NCBI GenBank assembly: GCA_028285415.1
Contig: JANQPF010000027.1
Coordinates: 1-64,000 of the forward strand
DNA length: 64,000 nucleotides
Origin: Pseudomonadales bacterium
GTDB taxonomy: Bacteria > Pseudomonadota > Gammaproteobacteria > Pseudomonadales > Azotimanducaceae
Reading direction: 5' to 3'
Below the pieces are notes generated by a model. The model was given only the letters and a program-made list of their open reading frames with translations, was not told where the DNA came from and did no database searches. This document shows positions 4,620-11,110 of this stretch, piece after piece (positions within the stretch are counted from its first letter, which is position 1; the number at the start of each line of letters is the position of its first letter). Made by a program: the position numbers and the translations under genes.

Positions 4620-4706
4620 GCCCGGGTGGTGAAATTGGTAGACACAAGGGACTTAAAATCCCTCGGAGGCAACTCCATGCGGGTTCAAGTCCCGCCCCGG
4701 GCACCA
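4620..4706 (+). tRNA. tRNA-Leu (anticodon UAA)
   Basis: An 87-nt class II tRNA with encoded CCA. The acceptor stem is gcccggg/cccgggc, and the anticodon arm is aggga/tccct around a loop with TAA at 4654-4656. The long variable arm and the T-arm gttcaagtc are intact. Its 3' end marks the left edge of the AT-richer block that follows, a common insertion position for islands. Confidence 0.95.
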
Positions 4707-5035
4707 ATCATCAGCTACGACCGTACACCTATTCTCAGCGGCAAGAAGAATATCGCTTGCCGGGCTGATTGCCGGACTTTAATTCGCTATCAGAATGACC
4801 GCGGTGATTCTAAACCTGAGTTCCTACTTCGCACACCACTTCACCGAATTGAGTCTATGAGCTGCCCCTCCACTCAACAGCTCTATCCAATGAGTGCTTT
4901 GTTAGCACTATCTTTCAGGTCCATACATCTATCAAACATTATTCCACGAGTTTTGGGGTACTTTTGTTAGTTCGCGTTCTGGGAGTAATCCGCACGCTAT
5001 CAGTCTCGGATTCCAGCAGTTAGGAAGCAGTCAAC
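4707..5035. other. Gene-free spacer at left edge of accessory block
   Basis: 329 bp between tRNA-Leu(UAA) and the ThDP-enzyme gene. It reads clearly more AT-rich than the core genome. I see no integrase, no copy of the tRNA 3' end and no convincing coding frame. Open frames running out of the tRNA are tRNA read-through artefacts. The promoter of the next gene should lie here. An AGGAAG Shine-Dalgarno element sits about 8 bp before ATG 5036. Confidence 0.5.
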
Positions 5036-6772
5036 ATGTCGACGGAATCAATAACAACGTCAGCGGATTTGCGCACCCAAAGCACTAGCCCTTTGCAAGC
5101 AACGCCACGCGGTCGGTCCACTTCGGAACTGGACATACCGCGCTCAACGACGGGGCAGATCATCGCTGACTCGTTACTTGCCCATGGCGTCGACACTGTC
5201 TTTGGGATTCCCGGAGTACACACTTACGAACTAACCGATGCGCTGCAGCGAGCCGGTGATTCAATGACATTCATACCAACACGGCACGAGCAAGGTGCAG
5301 GCTACATGGCTTACGGTTATGCCAAGTCTACTGGCAAACCAGGCGTGTACGCGGTGGTTCCAGGGCCCGGCATGCTCAATTCGAGCGGAGCGTTGTGCAC
5401 GGCATACGGAGCCGGAGCCCCGGTCATGTGCCTTACCGGCAATGTGATGTCCGACTTGATTGGCCAAGGCCGCGGCCAGGTGCACGAGTTACCCGACCAG
5501 TTAGCGACCATGCGGGGACTAACCAAGTGGGCAGCTCGAATTGAGCACCCAAACGCAGCCGCAGACACGATGGCTGAGGCATTCAAACAGATGCGAACAG
5601 GACGCGTTCGACCCGTAGCCGTCGAAACTCCCTGGGATGTCTTTGGAATGAGCGTTCCTGCCCAGAACGTCACACCAGTTCCTAACCAGGATCCTCCAAA
5701 GCCTGACCCACTTGCCGTCGAACGGGCGGCAGAGATTCTCCGCCACGCGCGCAATCCGTTGATCTGGGTTGGAGGCGGTGCGCTTGATGCTGGGGAGAGC
5801 GTTCTTGAATTGGCTGAGTTACTGCAAGCGCCAGTCACGAGCTTTCGCAGTGGCAAGGGCATCGTCAGTGAAAAACTACCCTACGGCATGTCATTTGCCG
5901 CTGCCCACAAAGGCTGGAAGGACGTTGACGTCTTGATCGGAATAGGCACCCGTTTGGAGATGCCGTATTTACATTGGCGATGGACGCCACCGGGTTTGAA
6001 GGTCATTCGTATCGATATCGATCCCAGTGAAATGGTTCGCTTACCTCCAGACTTAGGGATCGTGAGCGATTCGGATCTAGGTGCGCGAGCTTTGGTCAAA
6101 CAACTTACTGGCGTCATGCGTTCAAAACGCCCCACGCGCGTCGACGAGTTCGTAAAACAGAAAAAGGCAGCGCGGAACGCTTTCGATGCGATTCAGCCTC
6201 AAGTGGACTACCTGAGTTCAATACGCAAAGTGCTGCCCGACGACGGCATCTTTGTCGAGGAAGTATCGCAGGTGGGGTTCGCCGCACGCTATGCTTTTCC
6301 GGTTTACGAACCACGAAGCTACATCTCATGCGGCTATCAGGAGACCCTCGGATTCGGCTTTAATACAGCGCTTGGCGTGAAGGTTGCCAATCCAGATAGG
6401 CCCGTTGTGTCAGTATGTGGCGATGGCGGATTTCTATTTGGCATACAAGAATTGGCAACGGCCGTTCAGCACCGGATAAACGTTGTTACGATTGTGTTCA
6501 ACAATAATGCCTATGGTAACGTTCGGCGCGATCAGCTCGAAAATTTTGATGGATGTGTCGCAGGTGCTGAACTCGAAAACCCTGATTTTGTTCGCTTGAG
6601 CGAGAGTTTTGGGGCGAACGCGTATCGAGTATCAACTCCCGCTGATCTGGAAAGCGCATTGTCAAGTGCGCTATCAACGCAAGCTCCAGCGGTCATAGAA
6701 GTGCCAGTCGAGAGAGGTTCTGAAGCATCTCCGTGGCCTTTTATTCAGCCACCGCCACCGGACAACAGCTAG
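5036..6772 (+). CDS. ThDP-dependent carboligase/decarboxylase, acetolactate-synthase-like
   Basis: A 578-residue enzyme of the thiamine-diphosphate superfamily (acetolactate synthase, benzaldehyde lyase, 2-keto-acid decarboxylase group). It acts on the C-C bond next to a keto group. It has an N-terminal pyrimidine-binding domain with the catalytic Glu85 (TRHEQGAGYMA), a central domain (about 225-360) with GGGALDAGE, and a C-terminal pyrophosphate-binding domain with GDGG at 462-465 and the metal-ligand Asn at 489-491. The first ~35 residues are a Ser/Thr-rich extension. No small regulatory subunit gene (ilvN type) is adjacent, so a housekeeping role in branched-chain synthesis is unlikely. 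It is convergent with the NRPS-like gene, 65 bp apart, in an AT-richer block beside a tRNA. The substrate cannot be told from sequence alone. Confidence 0.85.
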   Translation: MSTESITTSADLRTQSTSPLQATPRGRSTSELDIPRSTTGQIIADSLLAHGVDTVFGIPGVHTYELTDALQRAGDSMTFIPTRHEQGAGYMAYGYAKSTGKPGVYAVVPGPGMLNSSGALCTAYGAGAPVMCLTGNVMSDLIGQGRGQVHELPDQLATMRGLTKWAARIEHPNAAADTMAEAFKQMRTGRVRPVAVETPWDVFGMSVPAQNVTPVPNQDPPKPDPLAVERAAEILRHARNPLIWVGGGALDAGESVLELAELLQAPVTSFRSGKGIVSEKLPYGMSFAAAHKGWKDVDVLIGIGTRLEMPYLHWRWTPPGLKVIRIDIDPSEMVRLPPDLGIVSDSDLGARALVKQLTGVMRSKRPTRVDEFVKQKKAARNAFDAIQPQVDYLSSIRKVLPDDGIFVEEVSQVGFAARYAFPVYEPRSYISCGYQETLGFGFNTALGVKVANPDRPVVSVCGDGGFLFGIQELATAVQHRINVVTIVFNNNAYGNVRRDQLENFDGCVAGAELENPDFVRLSESFGANAYRVSTPADLESALSSALSTQAPAVIEVPVERGSEASPWPFIQPPPPDNS

Positions 6773-6837
6773 GCAACCGGCTCTCCTTCCCATTCGATGC
6801 CTGTGCCGCAATCAGTGTTACAGGCTCCGTCGCAAAG

Positions 6838-9800
6838 TCATGATTTGACGCAACCACCAAGATGTTCTGCCAGCAAACTGACGTTAGGTGGTTCGAGAAT
6901 GCCGAGGTGATCTCCTGGTACGTCCACAACGTCAAGATCGTGCAGAATTTTGGACCATCCCAAACAACGATCTTCCGGCTCTAGCGGTTCGCGCTCACTC
7001 GCGCGATAAAGCACCACGTGGCCGTGGTACGGCGTAGCACGATAACCACTCAACGCTTTAGCTCTTGCTATTTCACGCGCCTCCATAACGTTGGGCGCTT
7101 TGTCGCCCGCATGCTGATTCGGCAGAAAGTGTGATCTCAAGCGACGCGTGACCGAGCTCAGGGTTTTGCGTGGATAGCCTGTCGGATCGTTGAGAAACGC
7201 GTGCAGGTGGGTGTGTAAGCGGGAGGTTAGTCCGCTATTGCGCTCAAATCCCGGACACCACGTGTCCATCAGAGCAACCAAAGGCACTGATTCTGAGGCT
7301 GCGGTCAGTATGCGTGCAACTTCAAGTGCGATGATGCCGCCAAAAGACTCGCCCGCCAGGTAATACGGTCCTTCGGGTTGCGTGGCGCGAATGGCCGCCA
7401 CATATTGAGCGGTAATGAACTCGATGCTCGAAAGCTTCTCTAGTATGGCTGCGTTGTCGCCGCTCTGAATCAGGTCAACTTCTTCCTGGAGAAAAATGCT
7501 ATAGAGCGGCTGGTTGTCGTCCAGCGCCAGTGCCAGGTCCCGGTACAACATGACGCCATAAAGGCACAGAATTGGCGGATTCGTTCCGCGCTTGAGACAG
7601 ACCGCATCGGAAACGAGCGATTCGGACGGCCCATCGTCTATGAATTGAGCCATCTGCCTGAGCGTGGGTGCTTCGATAAAAGCTCTTATCGATAACTCGA
7701 CATCAAAGGCCTGATTCGTGCGATCGATCGCTTTCGCAGCAAGTAGAGAAGTTCCTCCGAGATCCTGAAAGTCTTCATCCAGGGTGATCTCGGGCAAACT
7801 CAGGATCTCTGCCCAGATGCGAGCGAGCAGTTTTTGGGTTGCCGTTATCGGTTGCTCACCAAGGCCACGAATGACGTTGCTCGCGTCTGGTGCAGGAAGT
7901 GCGTTACGGTCAATCTTGCCGTTTGGATTGAGCGGCAAAGCATCCAAGGCAATGTAACCGTTGGGACGCATGTAGTCCGGCAGCCTGTCCTCGACGAATT
8001 TTCGAATGTTCCCAATCTCGTCTGCGCCGATATCGCCAATGATGTAAGCATACAACCCGTCGTCTCCTGTGGGGGTTTTCGCTGGCATGACTATGGCGTT
8101 GTCGACGTGTGGTGCCTCGCGAAGCGTTTGCTCGACTTCTAAGACTTCTACACGAATTCCTCTCACCTTAACTTGAAAGTCTTGGCGACCGATGATTTCT
8201 AATTGACCTTCGGGATTCCAGCGTCCGAGATCACCGGTGCGAAAAAAGGGTATCCCGTCAATTCGAACGAATTTTTCTGCGGTCTGGTCTGGAAGGTTCA
8301 AGTACCCGGGTGAGATACCTGCTCCCCCCAGGTAAACCTCGCCAATAACACCGTTAGGTAATAGATTGCTGTCTTCATCGTAGATCCTTGCGTACGTGTT
8401 ACTGATGGGGCGACCAACTACCGTCTTGCTTAGTGTGACATCCCTGGGCACTACGTAGTTGCAAGCGGTTGCGCTGCTTTCACTGCATCCATAGTTTGTA
8501 AAGAGCTTGGCATTGGGGAAGTAGCTGAGAACAGCTGAAGCCATTGAAGCGGGTATTACATCACCCCCCGTAAATAGGCACTTGATCTGGCCTAGATCCA
8601 CGCTTTCGGTCGATTCTTCAAGGTAATCCATGACTCGCTTCAACAAGCTTGGACCAATATGCACAATCGATGATTCGGAGAGATGCGCGAGTAGCTTTCG
8701 GGTCTCAAGTATGTCTTCGGGCTGTACGATACGAAGCGTTCCCCCGGCGACCAATGGCGAGAGGGTTTCAAACATGGTTATGCTGAACGTATGTCGCGCG
8801 AGGACGGGCATTTTGTCTGAGCGGCTGAACTCCGTCTGATCGATGCTCGACCAAACATTGTTGATGAGATTCGCATGGTTCATCAACACACCTTTGGGGC
8901 GACCGGTGCTACCTGAGGTGTAAATAACGTAGGCGGCGTCTTCGGGTTCCACGGGCACTTCGAGCCCGACCTCAGGCTTATCGAGAAGCCAATGTGGCTC
9001 AGACAAGTTGACAATTTGACGGCTTGTCTGGGCGAGAACTTCCAGGGTTTTCGACTCTGCTATGACGCAGATCGCTCCACAGTCCTCCACAACAGTAGCT
9101 ATCCGTTGCGCTGGGTGATCAGCATCAACAGGTACATAGACCGCTCCGAGCTTGAAGATGCCCAGCATGCTTGCGATAACGTCCGTTGACATTCTGAGAC
9201 AGACACAAACCCTGTCACCTTTCACCACGCCGAGACCATGCAGCATGTGCGAGATTTTGTTAGATCGTGCGTTGACTTGTCGATAGGTTAACGTGTTAAA
9301 GTCAGATTCTACGGCTGACGCCTCTGGTTGTGACTCGGATAACCTCTCTACCTCGCGAAAAACCGGTTCGGTCGGATAGCTCTTTCTTTGGCCCTGCCAA
9401 TTCTGCAGCTGCTGATTTATTTCGGTGGGAGAGAGCATCGCCACGCCCGCCACATCTTTGTCGGGTGAACTTGTGACATGGTTCAGCACCGCGCTGAGGT
9501 GATCGACGAACTGCTGCACCTTGGCTGCATCTGCCAGGGCGGGATCGTAGGCTGCCATAACGCTCACCGTATCTCCGTCAATGCAGAGAATTGGCTGTAA
9601 AGGGTGCGTCTGCGAATCGTTGTGCCTGGCAAACAGTCTATCTGTAATGATGTTTCTAAGCCGGTCTGTGGGTACAGCAAATTCGGGTTGTACGATGAGC
9701 ACCTGCATGTCGACAGGTTTGTCACTGATGGGATTGGTAGCGTCGTTTATGGCTTTGCTGCATCGAGAGATCAGTTCTTGGATGGGAAGTTTGCCGGAAA

Positions 9801-10092
9801 CAAACTGTGATGTTTCACAGTTTGATGTGGTGTTGTCCGAAAGACTAATAGTACGGAGACCGAGACTCATCGTCTTGCGGAGCCCGTATCGATAGAGCAA
9901 TACAAAAACGCTTGCAAGCATTCGGGAGCGGAGTTCTGAGTCAAGTCCCCCGCGTACATCGTATGTTGCTTCGGCGAGTGCGGTGTTGGAGCTCGCAACG
10001 CCGCCGAAGTGTGTCAAGCCGGCGGAATCTAAGAGTGAACTGGTAGGCCGCGCTTCGCGATCTGGCTGCCTCGTTTCTGAAACCGTATCCAT
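6838..10092 (-). CDS. NRPS-like A-T-TE protein with a condensation-domain remnant
   Basis: A 1084-residue protein that should activate an acid as an adenylate, load it on a carrier arm and release it with a thioesterase. Residues about 1-235 resemble only the C-terminal half of a condensation domain and have no HHxxxDG motif. The adenylation domain (about 245-735) has YTSGSTGRPKG at 391-401, YGCSE near 534, RTGD at 618-621 and the catalytic Lys in NGKIDRN (K726). In the A4 motif FSITMFE (436-442), Ser437 replaces the Asp that binds the amino group of alpha-amino acids, so a keto, hydroxy or aryl acid is more likely. The carrier serine is S782 (LGGTSL). The thioesterase has GESFG (S916), D943 and H1062. 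Bacterial and fungal A-T-TE enzymes such as ralfuranone or atromentin synthetases dimerise aryl-pyruvates, an analogy only. No phosphopantetheinyl transferase is seen. Confidence 0.88.
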   Translation of the reverse strand: MDTVSETRQPDREARPTSSLLDSAGLTHFGGVASSNTALAEATYDVRGGLDSELRSRMLASVFVLLYRYGLRKTMSLGLRTISLSDNTTSNCETSQFVSGKLPIQELISRCSKAINDATNPISDKPVDMQVLIVQPEFAVPTDRLRNIITDRLFARHNDSQTHPLQPILCIDGDTVSVMAAYDPALADAAKVQQFVDHLSAVLNHVTSSPDKDVAGVAMLSPTEINQQLQNWQGQRKSYPTEPVFREVERLSESQPEASAVESDFNTLTYRQVNARSNKISHMLHGLGVVKGDRVCVCLRMSTDVIASMLGIFKLGAVYVPVDADHPAQRIATVVEDCGAICVIAESKTLEVLAQTSRQIVNLSEPHWLLDKPEVGLEVPVEPEDAAYVIYTSGSTGRPKGVLMNHANLINNVWSSIDQTEFSRSDKMPVLARHTFSITMFETLSPLVAGGTLRIVQPEDILETRKLLAHLSESSIVHIGPSLLKRVMDYLEESTESVDLGQIKCLFTGGDVIPASMASAVLSYFPNAKLFTNYGCSESSATACNYVVPRDVTLSKTVVGRPISNTYARIYDEDSNLLPNGVIGEVYLGGAGISPGYLNLPDQTAEKFVRIDGIPFFRTGDLGRWNPEGQLEIIGRQDFQVKVRGIRVEVLEVEQTLREAPHVDNAIVMPAKTPTGDDGLYAYIIGDIGADEIGNIRKFVEDRLPDYMRPNGYIALDALPLNPNGKIDRNALPAPDASNVIRGLGEQPITATQKLLARIWAEILSLPEITLDEDFQDLGGTSLLAAKAIDRTNQAFDVELSIRAFIEAPTLRQMAQFIDDGPSESLVSDAVCLKRGTNPPILCLYGVMLYRDLALALDDNQPLYSIFLQEEVDLIQSGDNAAILEKLSSIEFITAQYVAAIRATQPEGPYYLAGESFGGIIALEVARILTAASESVPLVALMDTWCPGFERNSGLTSRLHTHLHAFLNDPTGYPRKTLSSVTRRLRSHFLPNQHAGDKAPNVMEAREIARAKALSGYRATPYHGHVVLYRASEREPLEPEDRCLGWSKILHDLDVVDVPGDHLGILEPPNVSLLAEHLGGCVKS

Positions 10093-10449
10093 GTGTTTGA
10101 AGAATTATCAAGTAAACATACATTATATGGTCAGATAGTGTATGCACAATCAGCAAATTGTGATGGGAAGTTCATCGCAAACATGCCCAGCTCCGTCATC
10201 TTCTGCCAATCCAAGTGTTTGCCAGGTGATATGAGCTTGGGATCAACACCGTTGCTAGCGAGGGATGGTTGCGTTTTTGTCGGCTGCTTATCTTGCAGAT
10301 CCTTCACTAAATATTCATAAAATACAAATAGATAAATCTCTATTTTTAAGTGATTTATCGAGATGCGGATCTGCAAGTGCCGCGTCTCCAAGCCCTGGAA
10401 TGCCACCCATGTCACGGTGAGTTTTTCTCGCCCTCGCTACAGTAGTCGC
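10093..10449. other. Gene-poor spacer at right edge of accessory block
   Basis: 357 bp of AT-rich sequence between the NRPS-like gene and the next + strand gene. It must contain the promoter of the NRPS-like gene. A 94-codon open frame on the minus strand (10131-10415) has no recognisable domain and no good ribosome site, and I do not call it a gene. Base composition returns to the genome norm around 10.4 kb, which I take as the right boundary of the block. I found no copy of the tRNA-Leu 3' end here. Confidence 0.4.
10117..10144. promoter_or_regulatory. Possible operator upstream of the NRPS-like gene
   Basis: A 6-bp inverted repeat CATACA (10117-10122) / TGTATG (10139-10144) with a 16-bp AT-rich gap, starting 24 bp upstream of the start codon at 10092. 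Position and symmetry would suit a repressor or activator site. The half-sites are short, so chance is possible. Confidence 0.25.
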
Positions 10450-10806
10450 ATGATAGAAGTACTCCTGATTACGACCCTTGCGCTGGGCCTGAGCGAGAGC
10501 ATCGAAAGTCGTCTGCCGGAAGACCCGGGGATGATCTACACGGTGGGATTTAAATATGACGGCGTCAAAGTTGGTCTCGACTGGAAAAATCGACAGATTG
10601 TTCCGTCTCGGGCCTGCCGCAAAGCGAGCGCCGTAGATAAGCCGCGCTGTCAGCAGGCGGCCATCGAATGGCTGAAGGCTGAGTGTGCTTACTATGGTGA
10701 TATGCCCAGGCGCACAGCCAAGCAGTCCCATATGCAGGCTGCAGTCTGTCAGGGTGCCAAAGATCTGGCAGAGTTCGTGCGCGCCCGTCAGGTCGCCGAA
10801 CGCTGA
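10450..10806 (+). CDS. Small exported protein of unknown function
   Basis: A 118-residue product if started at ATG 10450 (MIEVLLITTLALGLSESIESR). The open frame runs further upstream to 10363, but those residues look non-coding. The hydrophobic start could be a signal peptide. The rest is polar with four cysteines (ACRK, RCQQ, ECAY, VCQG), which might form disulphides. I do not recognise a family. A strong terminator follows 17 bp after the stop, which supports it as a transcribed gene. It lies just outside the AT-rich block and its codon use looks like the core genome. Confidence 0.6.
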   Translation: MIEVLLITTLALGLSESIESRLPEDPGMIYTVGFKYDGVKVGLDWKNRQIVPSRACRKASAVDKPRCQQAAIEWLKAECAYYGDMPRRTAKQSHMQAAVCQGAKDLAEFVRARQVAER

Positions 10807-10936: not shown

Positions 10937-11010
10937 GGCTGGGTGGCAGAGTGGTTATGCAGCGGACTGCAACTCCGTGTACGCCGGTTCGATTCCGACC
11001 CCAGCCTCCA
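10937..11010 (+). tRNA. tRNA-Cys (anticodon GCA)
   Basis: A 74-nt tRNA with encoded CCA. The acceptor stem is ggctggg/cccagcc, the discriminator base is T as usual for tRNA-Cys, and the anticodon arm is gcgga/tccgt with GCA at 10969-10971. Its last 24 bases recur 100 bp downstream. Confidence 0.95.
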
Positions 11011-11110
11011 TATTTATCAGATGGTCCCCGCCACCCGGCATTGCCATCCCGGCGTACACCATGTGTCCGCCGCCGGGGGCCGGCCCGTTCGATTCCGACC
11101 CCAGCCTCCA
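10987..11110 (+). repeat. 24-bp direct repeat of the tRNA-Cys 3' end
   Basis: Bases 10987-11010 (T-arm, acceptor strand and CCA of tRNA-Cys) are repeated exactly at 11087-11110, starting with gttcgattcc and ending in agcctcca. The 76 bp between the copies hold no gene. The second copy has no matching 5' half. It is either an attachment-site duplication left by an integrated and lost element or the remnant of a deleted second tRNA. Confidence 0.8.

Follow-up and report, generated by a model that had tools for sequence, protein, structure and literature searches.

We identified a two-gene accessory block in a 64-kb stretch of contig JANQPF010000027.1 (hereafter the window) from a Pseudomonadales bacterium of the family Azotimanducaceae. 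One gene encodes a thiamine diphosphate (ThDP)-dependent enzyme, the other a protein related to non-ribosomal peptide synthetases (NRPSs) with adenylation (A), thiolation (T) and thioesterase (TE) domains. Most likely, the synthetase is an orphan of a little-studied clade, here termed SIF, and both genes are accessory, occupying a variable spot between tRNA genes. With slightly better than even confidence, we read the block as one in which the SIF synthetase loads an acid lacking an alpha-amino group and the ThDP enzyme is a decarboxylase. The A domain would adenylate such a carboxylic acid, drawn from the tyrosine/4-hydroxyphenylpyruvate branch, the acid would be loaded on the T domain, and the TE domain may free a small product (an ester, lactone or dimer). 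The ThDP protein would decarboxylate a 2-oxo acid derived from amino-acid transamination, a reaction of the Ehrlich type.

The synthetase frame is open over all 1084 residues, and Pfam places the A domain at about residues 247–740, T at 755–818 and TE at about 830–1080. The T-domain serine and the Ser, Asp and His of the TE domain are present. The sequence-only reading had described an A-T-TE protein; these three domains were found, but about 235 residues precede the A domain, and the last part of this stretch resembles the C-terminal end of a condensation domain. The match to PF00668 covers only model positions 327–454 (residues 100–227) and, at 21.8 bits, falls below the cut-off of 30.6. By Pfam, the protein thus has the A-T-TE order without a working condensation domain that characterizes aryl-2-oxo-acid synthetases. 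The best full-length relative, at locus L109, aligns at 34% identity over 1067 columns, including the stretch before the A domain, and the L110 protein is likewise long in this part, suggesting that the condensation truncation is not recent.

We read the A-domain pocket as SIFHFGNATK from an alignment that uses conserved motifs A4, A5 and A10 as anchors; the tenth position, K726, lies outside residues 432–545. The initial serine aligns with the aspartate of the FDxS motif in gramicidin synthase LgrA. In amino-acid-activating A domains, D235 binds the alpha-amino group, so a pocket without it is expected for a substrate other than an amino acid. Keto-acid-activating A domains are reported to have V at the first pocket position (PMC10316625). 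The window protein has S there, and the acid may therefore be another, for example homogentisate or a hydroxy-aryl acid. The comparison with keto-acid activators that had been proposed earlier gives a divided answer: the absence of D235 agrees with such a pocket, whereas the first residue, by the published rule, does not.

Fungal quinone and furanone synthetases, such as those for atromentin and polyporic acid, are also free-standing A-T-TE proteins whose pockets lack the amino-acid aspartate. RalA is presumably a bacterial A-T-TE furanone synthetase. The window synthetase resembles the fungal enzymes in domains and pocket, and differs from them in its first pocket residue (S rather than the V reported for keto-acid activators in PMC10316625) and in its condensation remnant.

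Phylogenetic analysis of the A domain compared the window with 74 distinct rows from fetched loci, each with 350 or more aligned positions. The pocket begins with SIF in 18 of the 74 rows (17 SIFH and one SIFL), and these 18 and the window protein form one side of a branch supported at 98/91, with the window splitting first among those found. Removal of 41 columns, covering the pocket and adjacent positions, left the branch at 90/91; it then appeared in 92% of 200 bootstrap trees. We define the SIF clade by this pocket start and by a single A-domain branch, and the window protein has both. The other members (L056–L059, L102–L114 and L132) come from the same order as the window genome, and the tree places the closest kin of the synthetase in other families of that order. 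In full-length phmmer comparisons, the window protein scored 354–637 bits against 13 SIF loci and 438–480 against four more; the best non-SIF match seen scored 421 bits. Identity to SIF proteins is 29–34% over the whole length (12 aligned) and reaches 38% for the A domain. The clade consists mostly of free-standing A-T-TE proteins, with a longer NRPS at L132 and a different C-terminal part at L113. The C-terminal part of the latter protein (L113, 5339–7927) could not be aligned with other TE domains and, by eye, resembles a different alpha/beta hydrolase.

We read the surroundings of every one of the 18 SIF loci, in stretches of 14–20 kb. A gene of the 4-hydroxyphenylpyruvate dioxygenase (HPPD) type adjoins the synthetase or sits one gene away in 14 of them. 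Full-length HPPD is encoded in six loci (L057, L107, L108, L113, L114 and L132) from six genera and in differing orientations. The L057 protein passes TIGR01263 with 332 bits, and the other five match it at 282–317 bits; all six keep H, H and E at what we take to be the iron ligand positions. The remaining eight (L056, L058, L059 and L102–L106) encode a protein of about 235 residues that resembles the C-terminal half of HPPD; the two scanned reached only 35–36 bits against TIGR01263 (cut-off 277). Given that these eight loci belong to one genus and have a conserved arrangement, we count them as roughly one event. An HPPD-type neighbour is thus a usual, not a defining, trait of the clade; the window gene lacks it and has the ThDP gene instead. 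With S at position 235, the SIF pocket matches neither amino-acid codes nor the published keto-acid code, and the recurrent HPPD neighbour adds a concrete substrate hypothesis. It is this clade and its HPPD neighbours, more than the gene pair, that we consider of interest.

Searches for further relatives, in which genome counts include the window genome itself, recovered no close orthologue of the synthetase in the genomes searched. In 58 relatives, the strongest outside matches were NRPS domains at no more than 36% identity. There was one other match, with pocket DVQR, in 369 genomes of the class (E 1e-122), none in 398 genomes of the phylum (E 1e-122), and 14 in 390 genomes of the order (E 1e-110), four of which were the first SIF members. 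Profile searches returned two other matches among 170 genomes from the window's own family (pockets DAFW and DILL; no second SIF member), eight in 303 genomes of the class (none SIF), and only the already known G593 in 15 genomes of family f210. In 120 genomes of family f16, 17 had a match and all 17 had a SIF protein; the extra matches L098 and L101 were not SIF. Six exact 8-mers, a weak test, recovered six loci from GTDB contigs, none above 33% identity, and a search of viral contigs gave nothing. Plasmids were rejected as a source, the best 30 of 2,882 records being general NRPS matches at 28–34%. Among the open-access literature matches listed, we found no description of the SIF synthetase clade, and no title or abstract opening described a comparable pairing of a synthetase with HPPD or with a ThDP enzyme.

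The ThDP enzyme, which has three TPP_enzyme Pfam domains, belongs to subfamily PRK08266 (NF006122, 818.8 bits; cut-off 571), as do all five relatives scanned. NCBIfam labels this subfamily ‘hypothetical protein’. The enzyme had been called acetolactate-synthase-like, and we checked whether it groups with housekeeping IlvB/IlvG. It does not: its score against TIGR00118, the acetolactate synthase large subunit model, is 326.8 bits, below the cut-off of 538.35 for IlvB, IlvI or AlsS membership, and the genome's own IlvI (L004, TIGR00118 796 bits) pairs with the L112 IlvI at 100/100, with the ThDP protein in another clade. The RHEQ glutamate and the GDGG...NN cofactor motif are present. The second-best model, at 393 bits, is NF005712 for AruI-type 5-guanidino-2-oxopentanoate decarboxylase; the ThDP protein falls below its cut-off of 500, while the same genome has a member above it (L003). 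AruI-type systems follow a transaminase-decarboxylase logic.

Rhizobial plasmids carry the nearest ThDP sequences found, in 102 records at E 1e-100 (58–63% identity in the best 40 of the 102). Eight of these loci were read with flanks (L133–L140), and five (L133–L136 and L139) have an aromatic amino acid transaminase gene directly upstream; the two transaminases scanned scored 494 and 500 bits against NF006719 (cut-off 377). In L133–L135, an Lrp-type regulator also adjoins the ThDP gene. The upstream transaminase suggests a logic of transamination followed by 2-oxo-acid decarboxylation, and by analogy the window protein is probably a 2-oxo-acid decarboxylase. PRK08266 thereby gains a testable role, that of a decarboxylase behind an aromatic aminotransferase. 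Unlike those five plasmid genes, the window copy has no aminotransferase beside it and adjoins the A-T-TE gene. The tree places its closest kin in rhizobia and its own genus; with three rhizobial sequences included, it joins them at 82/88, which is not strong. A genome search gave eight matches besides its own, and the seven read with flanks (L060–L066; the L060 contig is only 6 kb) have mixed neighbours: TauD, MFS and dimethylformamidase-like genes at L060 and L061, a nitrilase-like gene at L065, and an aminotransferase plus an aldehyde dehydrogenase at L066. Nothing relevant on BbmA, a ThDP enzyme among the solved-structure matches, appeared among the open-access literature matches listed.

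The block lies between tRNA-Leu(UAA) and tRNA-Cys (Table). As the sequence-only reading had proposed, it is a convergent pair beside tRNA-Leu(UAA), with 65 bp between the genes. These are its only open reading frames (ORFs) of more than 200 residues, and the family scan covered these two; neither is an integrase. A promoter and terminator scan gave no more sites than shuffled sequence. We read the spot in four relatives of the same genus with PhoU and UvrC on one contig (G003, G006, G018 and G030), leaving aside G040 and G041, members of other families in which PhoU and UvrC share a contig far apart. All four keep the order PhoU, tRNA-Leu, tRNA-Leu, tRNA-Cys, PgsA, UvrC. Between tRNA-Leu(UAA) and tRNA-Cys, G018 has 24 bp and G030 has 465 bp. 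In G006 this interval spans 5.6 kb and holds sensor-like, PurU-like and transporter-like genes and a small ORF like that at window 10451–10806; in G003 it spans 10.6 kb, with RND-like efflux genes among others (names in both from translations). Because length and content differ, we regard this as a variable spot with an empty state, and the 24-bp gap of G018 is the empty site that had been anticipated. The ORF shared with G006 suggests that the genome-specific part ends near 10.4 kb. Thus, the block is most likely accessory cargo in this spot. Of the features of a tRNA-borne integrative island, it shows variable occupancy of the site; neither of its two ORFs of more than 200 residues is an integrase, and a search of the window for a flanking repeat of the tRNA-Leu 3' end found none.

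Table. Coordinates of the block and its borders in the window
Feature	Position	Strand	Basis or remark
tRNA-Leu(UAA)	4620..4706	+	Left border of the block; ARAGORN
ThDP-dependent enzyme gene, 578 aa, PRK08266 (NF006122)	5036..6772	+	NF006122 score, three TPP_enzyme Pfam domains, alignment and tree
NRPS-like synthetase gene, 1084 aa, condensation C-lobe remnant-A-T-TE	6838..10092	-	Pfam, relative L109, clade
A-domain stretch, aa 432-545, with nine of ten pocket positions	8458..8799	-	Motif-anchored alignment
Condensation domain remnant at the protein's N-terminal side, aa 46-235, without active-site half	9388..9957	-	Similarity to L109, weak PF00668 match
Small ORF outside the block, marking its right side	10451..10806	+	Similar ORF in the G006 gap (translations compared by eye)
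tRNA-Cys(GCA)	10937..11010	+	Right border of the variable spot; ARAGORN

The last 24 bases of tRNA-Cys (window 10987–11010) are exactly repeated 100 bp on, at 11087–11110, as in a small remnant of an attachment site. Among the stretches from the four relatives, this 24-base end, allowing up to three mismatches, matched in G018 only, at the tRNA itself. In G030, a 1.65-kb insert with a VIT1-like ORF (from translation) lies between the two tRNA-Leu genes (L076, 1686–3340), suggesting that both gaps of the tRNA group accept inserts.

Several observations weigh against an aryl-acid-loading SIF synthetase beside a 2-oxo-acid decarboxylase. Without the pocket columns, the SIF branch loses its star in the tree (90/91), and the row most identical to the window, at 37%, is the non-SIF L049. 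Pocket positions 8 and 9 are A and T in the window and C and M in all 18 relatives, and we know of no SIF-clade member with an assayed substrate. In the stretches read, HPPD-type genes are absent from four of the 18 SIF loci (L109–L112), of which L109 is the top full-length match; the 64-kb window has none either. On the ThDP side, the copies from the window's own genus adjoin other genes (such as TauD, MFS and a dimethylformamidase-like gene), and three of the eight plasmid loci have no aminotransferase (L137 at 60% identity, L138 at 43% and L140 at 50%).

The sequence-only reading had gone further and proposed that the two enzymes draw on one keto-acid pool as a minimal pathway. The tie to such a pool has indirect support, for each family separately: relatives of both genes have neighbours that handle amino-acid-derived 2-oxo acids, which for the synthetase point more narrowly to the 4-hydroxyphenylpyruvate step. 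By the linkage test set in that reading, the two genes are unlinked in all relatives read. No PRK08266-type gene occurs in any of the 18 SIF loci, where L112 has only ilvI with ilvH, 1.7 kb from the synthetase, and no synthetase occurs in any of the 15 ThDP relatives read with flanks (seven genomic and eight plasmid). These relatives, at most 38% (A domain) and 63% identical, are too distant to exclude a recent pairing. It is possible, if doubtful, that the two enzymes share one pathway.

In the full form of that proposal, the ThDP enzyme would make an aldehyde or acyloin from an aryl-2-oxo acid, and the synthetase would activate that acid or a sister 2-oxo acid and either join it to the ThDP product or dimerize it, yielding a furanone-like product, with the ThDP gene standing in the place of HPPD. 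The genes are adjacent, convergent and similarly unusual in GC content at third codon positions (GC3), and the neighbours of both families elsewhere point to amino-acid-derived 2-oxo acids. The obafluorin cluster offers a parallel by description: its ThDP phenylpyruvate decarboxylase ObaH, an aryl-pyruvate decarboxylase clustered with an NRPS, is reported to act with ObaG and ObaI (PMC5490192). However, ObaH works there with a transaldolase (ObaG) and a bimodular NRPS, unlike the window pair, and is reported to yield an aldehyde, acyloin not being detected. Besides the absence of linkage in relatives, convergent genes do not share a promoter, and the nearest kin differ, lying in other families of the order for the synthetase and in rhizobia and the own genus for the ThDP enzyme. 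On balance, we consider this pathway unlikely. More improbable still is a version in which the SIF family uses 4-hydroxyphenylpyruvate or homogentisate and a ThDP 2-oxo-acid enzyme has here replaced HPPD, so that two genes would lead to an aryl acyloin ester or furanone.

Composition does not decide the matter. GC content is 0.549 for the ThDP gene and 0.529 for the synthetase gene, and a comparison of codon use with the flanks, as had been advised, gave GC3 of 0.546 and 0.563, against a mean of 0.721 (s.d. 0.051; lowest 0.553) for 37 greedily chosen, non-overlapping ORFs of more than 200 residues elsewhere in the window, which are mechanical ORFs and include some antisense ones. The block had been described as AT-richer than its surroundings; this stands for the GC3 of both genes, but GC is uneven across the block, the first half of the ThDP gene being at 0.57–0.59. 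Other NRPS and polyketide synthase genes of the same genome (contig C7) have GC3 of 0.58–0.60. Low GC3 may therefore mark accessory genes generally; it is not unique to the pair, and we rejected it as proof of joint arrival.

Alternatively, the synthetase might load an acyl or aminoacyl group that decorates an exopolysaccharide, as clade members linked to such clusters may do with MBOAT and SGNH-like proteins. Eight members from one genus lie in apparent exopolysaccharide clusters, seven of them adjoining an MBOAT-type gene (by eye; a family scan covered the L056 MBOAT). Among the other ten members, however, only L110 and perhaps L114 are near sugar or exopolysaccharide genes, the window synthetase is surrounded by phosphate-transport, PgsA and UvrC genes (from translations), and its pocket lacks D235, making this role very unlikely here. 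That the synthetase is a decayed, disused NRPS module kept by chance beside a catabolic ThDP gene is scarcely credible: the condensation part is truncated and the genus and family searches gave no close relative, but the frame is open throughout, the A, T and TE motifs are intact, and the long stretch before the A domain recurs in L109, where it can be aligned, and in L110.

Within the SIF clade, the eight loci with half-size HPPD-like proteins (L056, L058, L059 and L102–L106) form a recurrent set of that protein, a SIF A-T-TE synthetase, an MBOAT-type protein and a conserved protein of about 325 residues, in apparent exopolysaccharide clusters; in L105, another acyltransferase-like ORF replaces the MBOAT. 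Possibly, this set constitutes an aryl-acid decoration system.

The window genome encodes a second free-standing A-T-TE protein (L079, 9639–12983 on contig C7; 1114 aa), adjoining acyl-CoA dehydrogenase-like ORFs and a TonB receptor-like ORF. We excluded this paralogue from the SIF clade, as it has a normal D235 pocket and falls outside the SIF branch. The same genome also encodes a 1564-aa protein (L080, 10308–15002) that combines a formyltransferase, a split A domain, a luciferase-like monooxygenase and a T domain. A protein of similar length and start (L107, 1554–6263; unscanned) adjoins a SIF synthetase in another genome.

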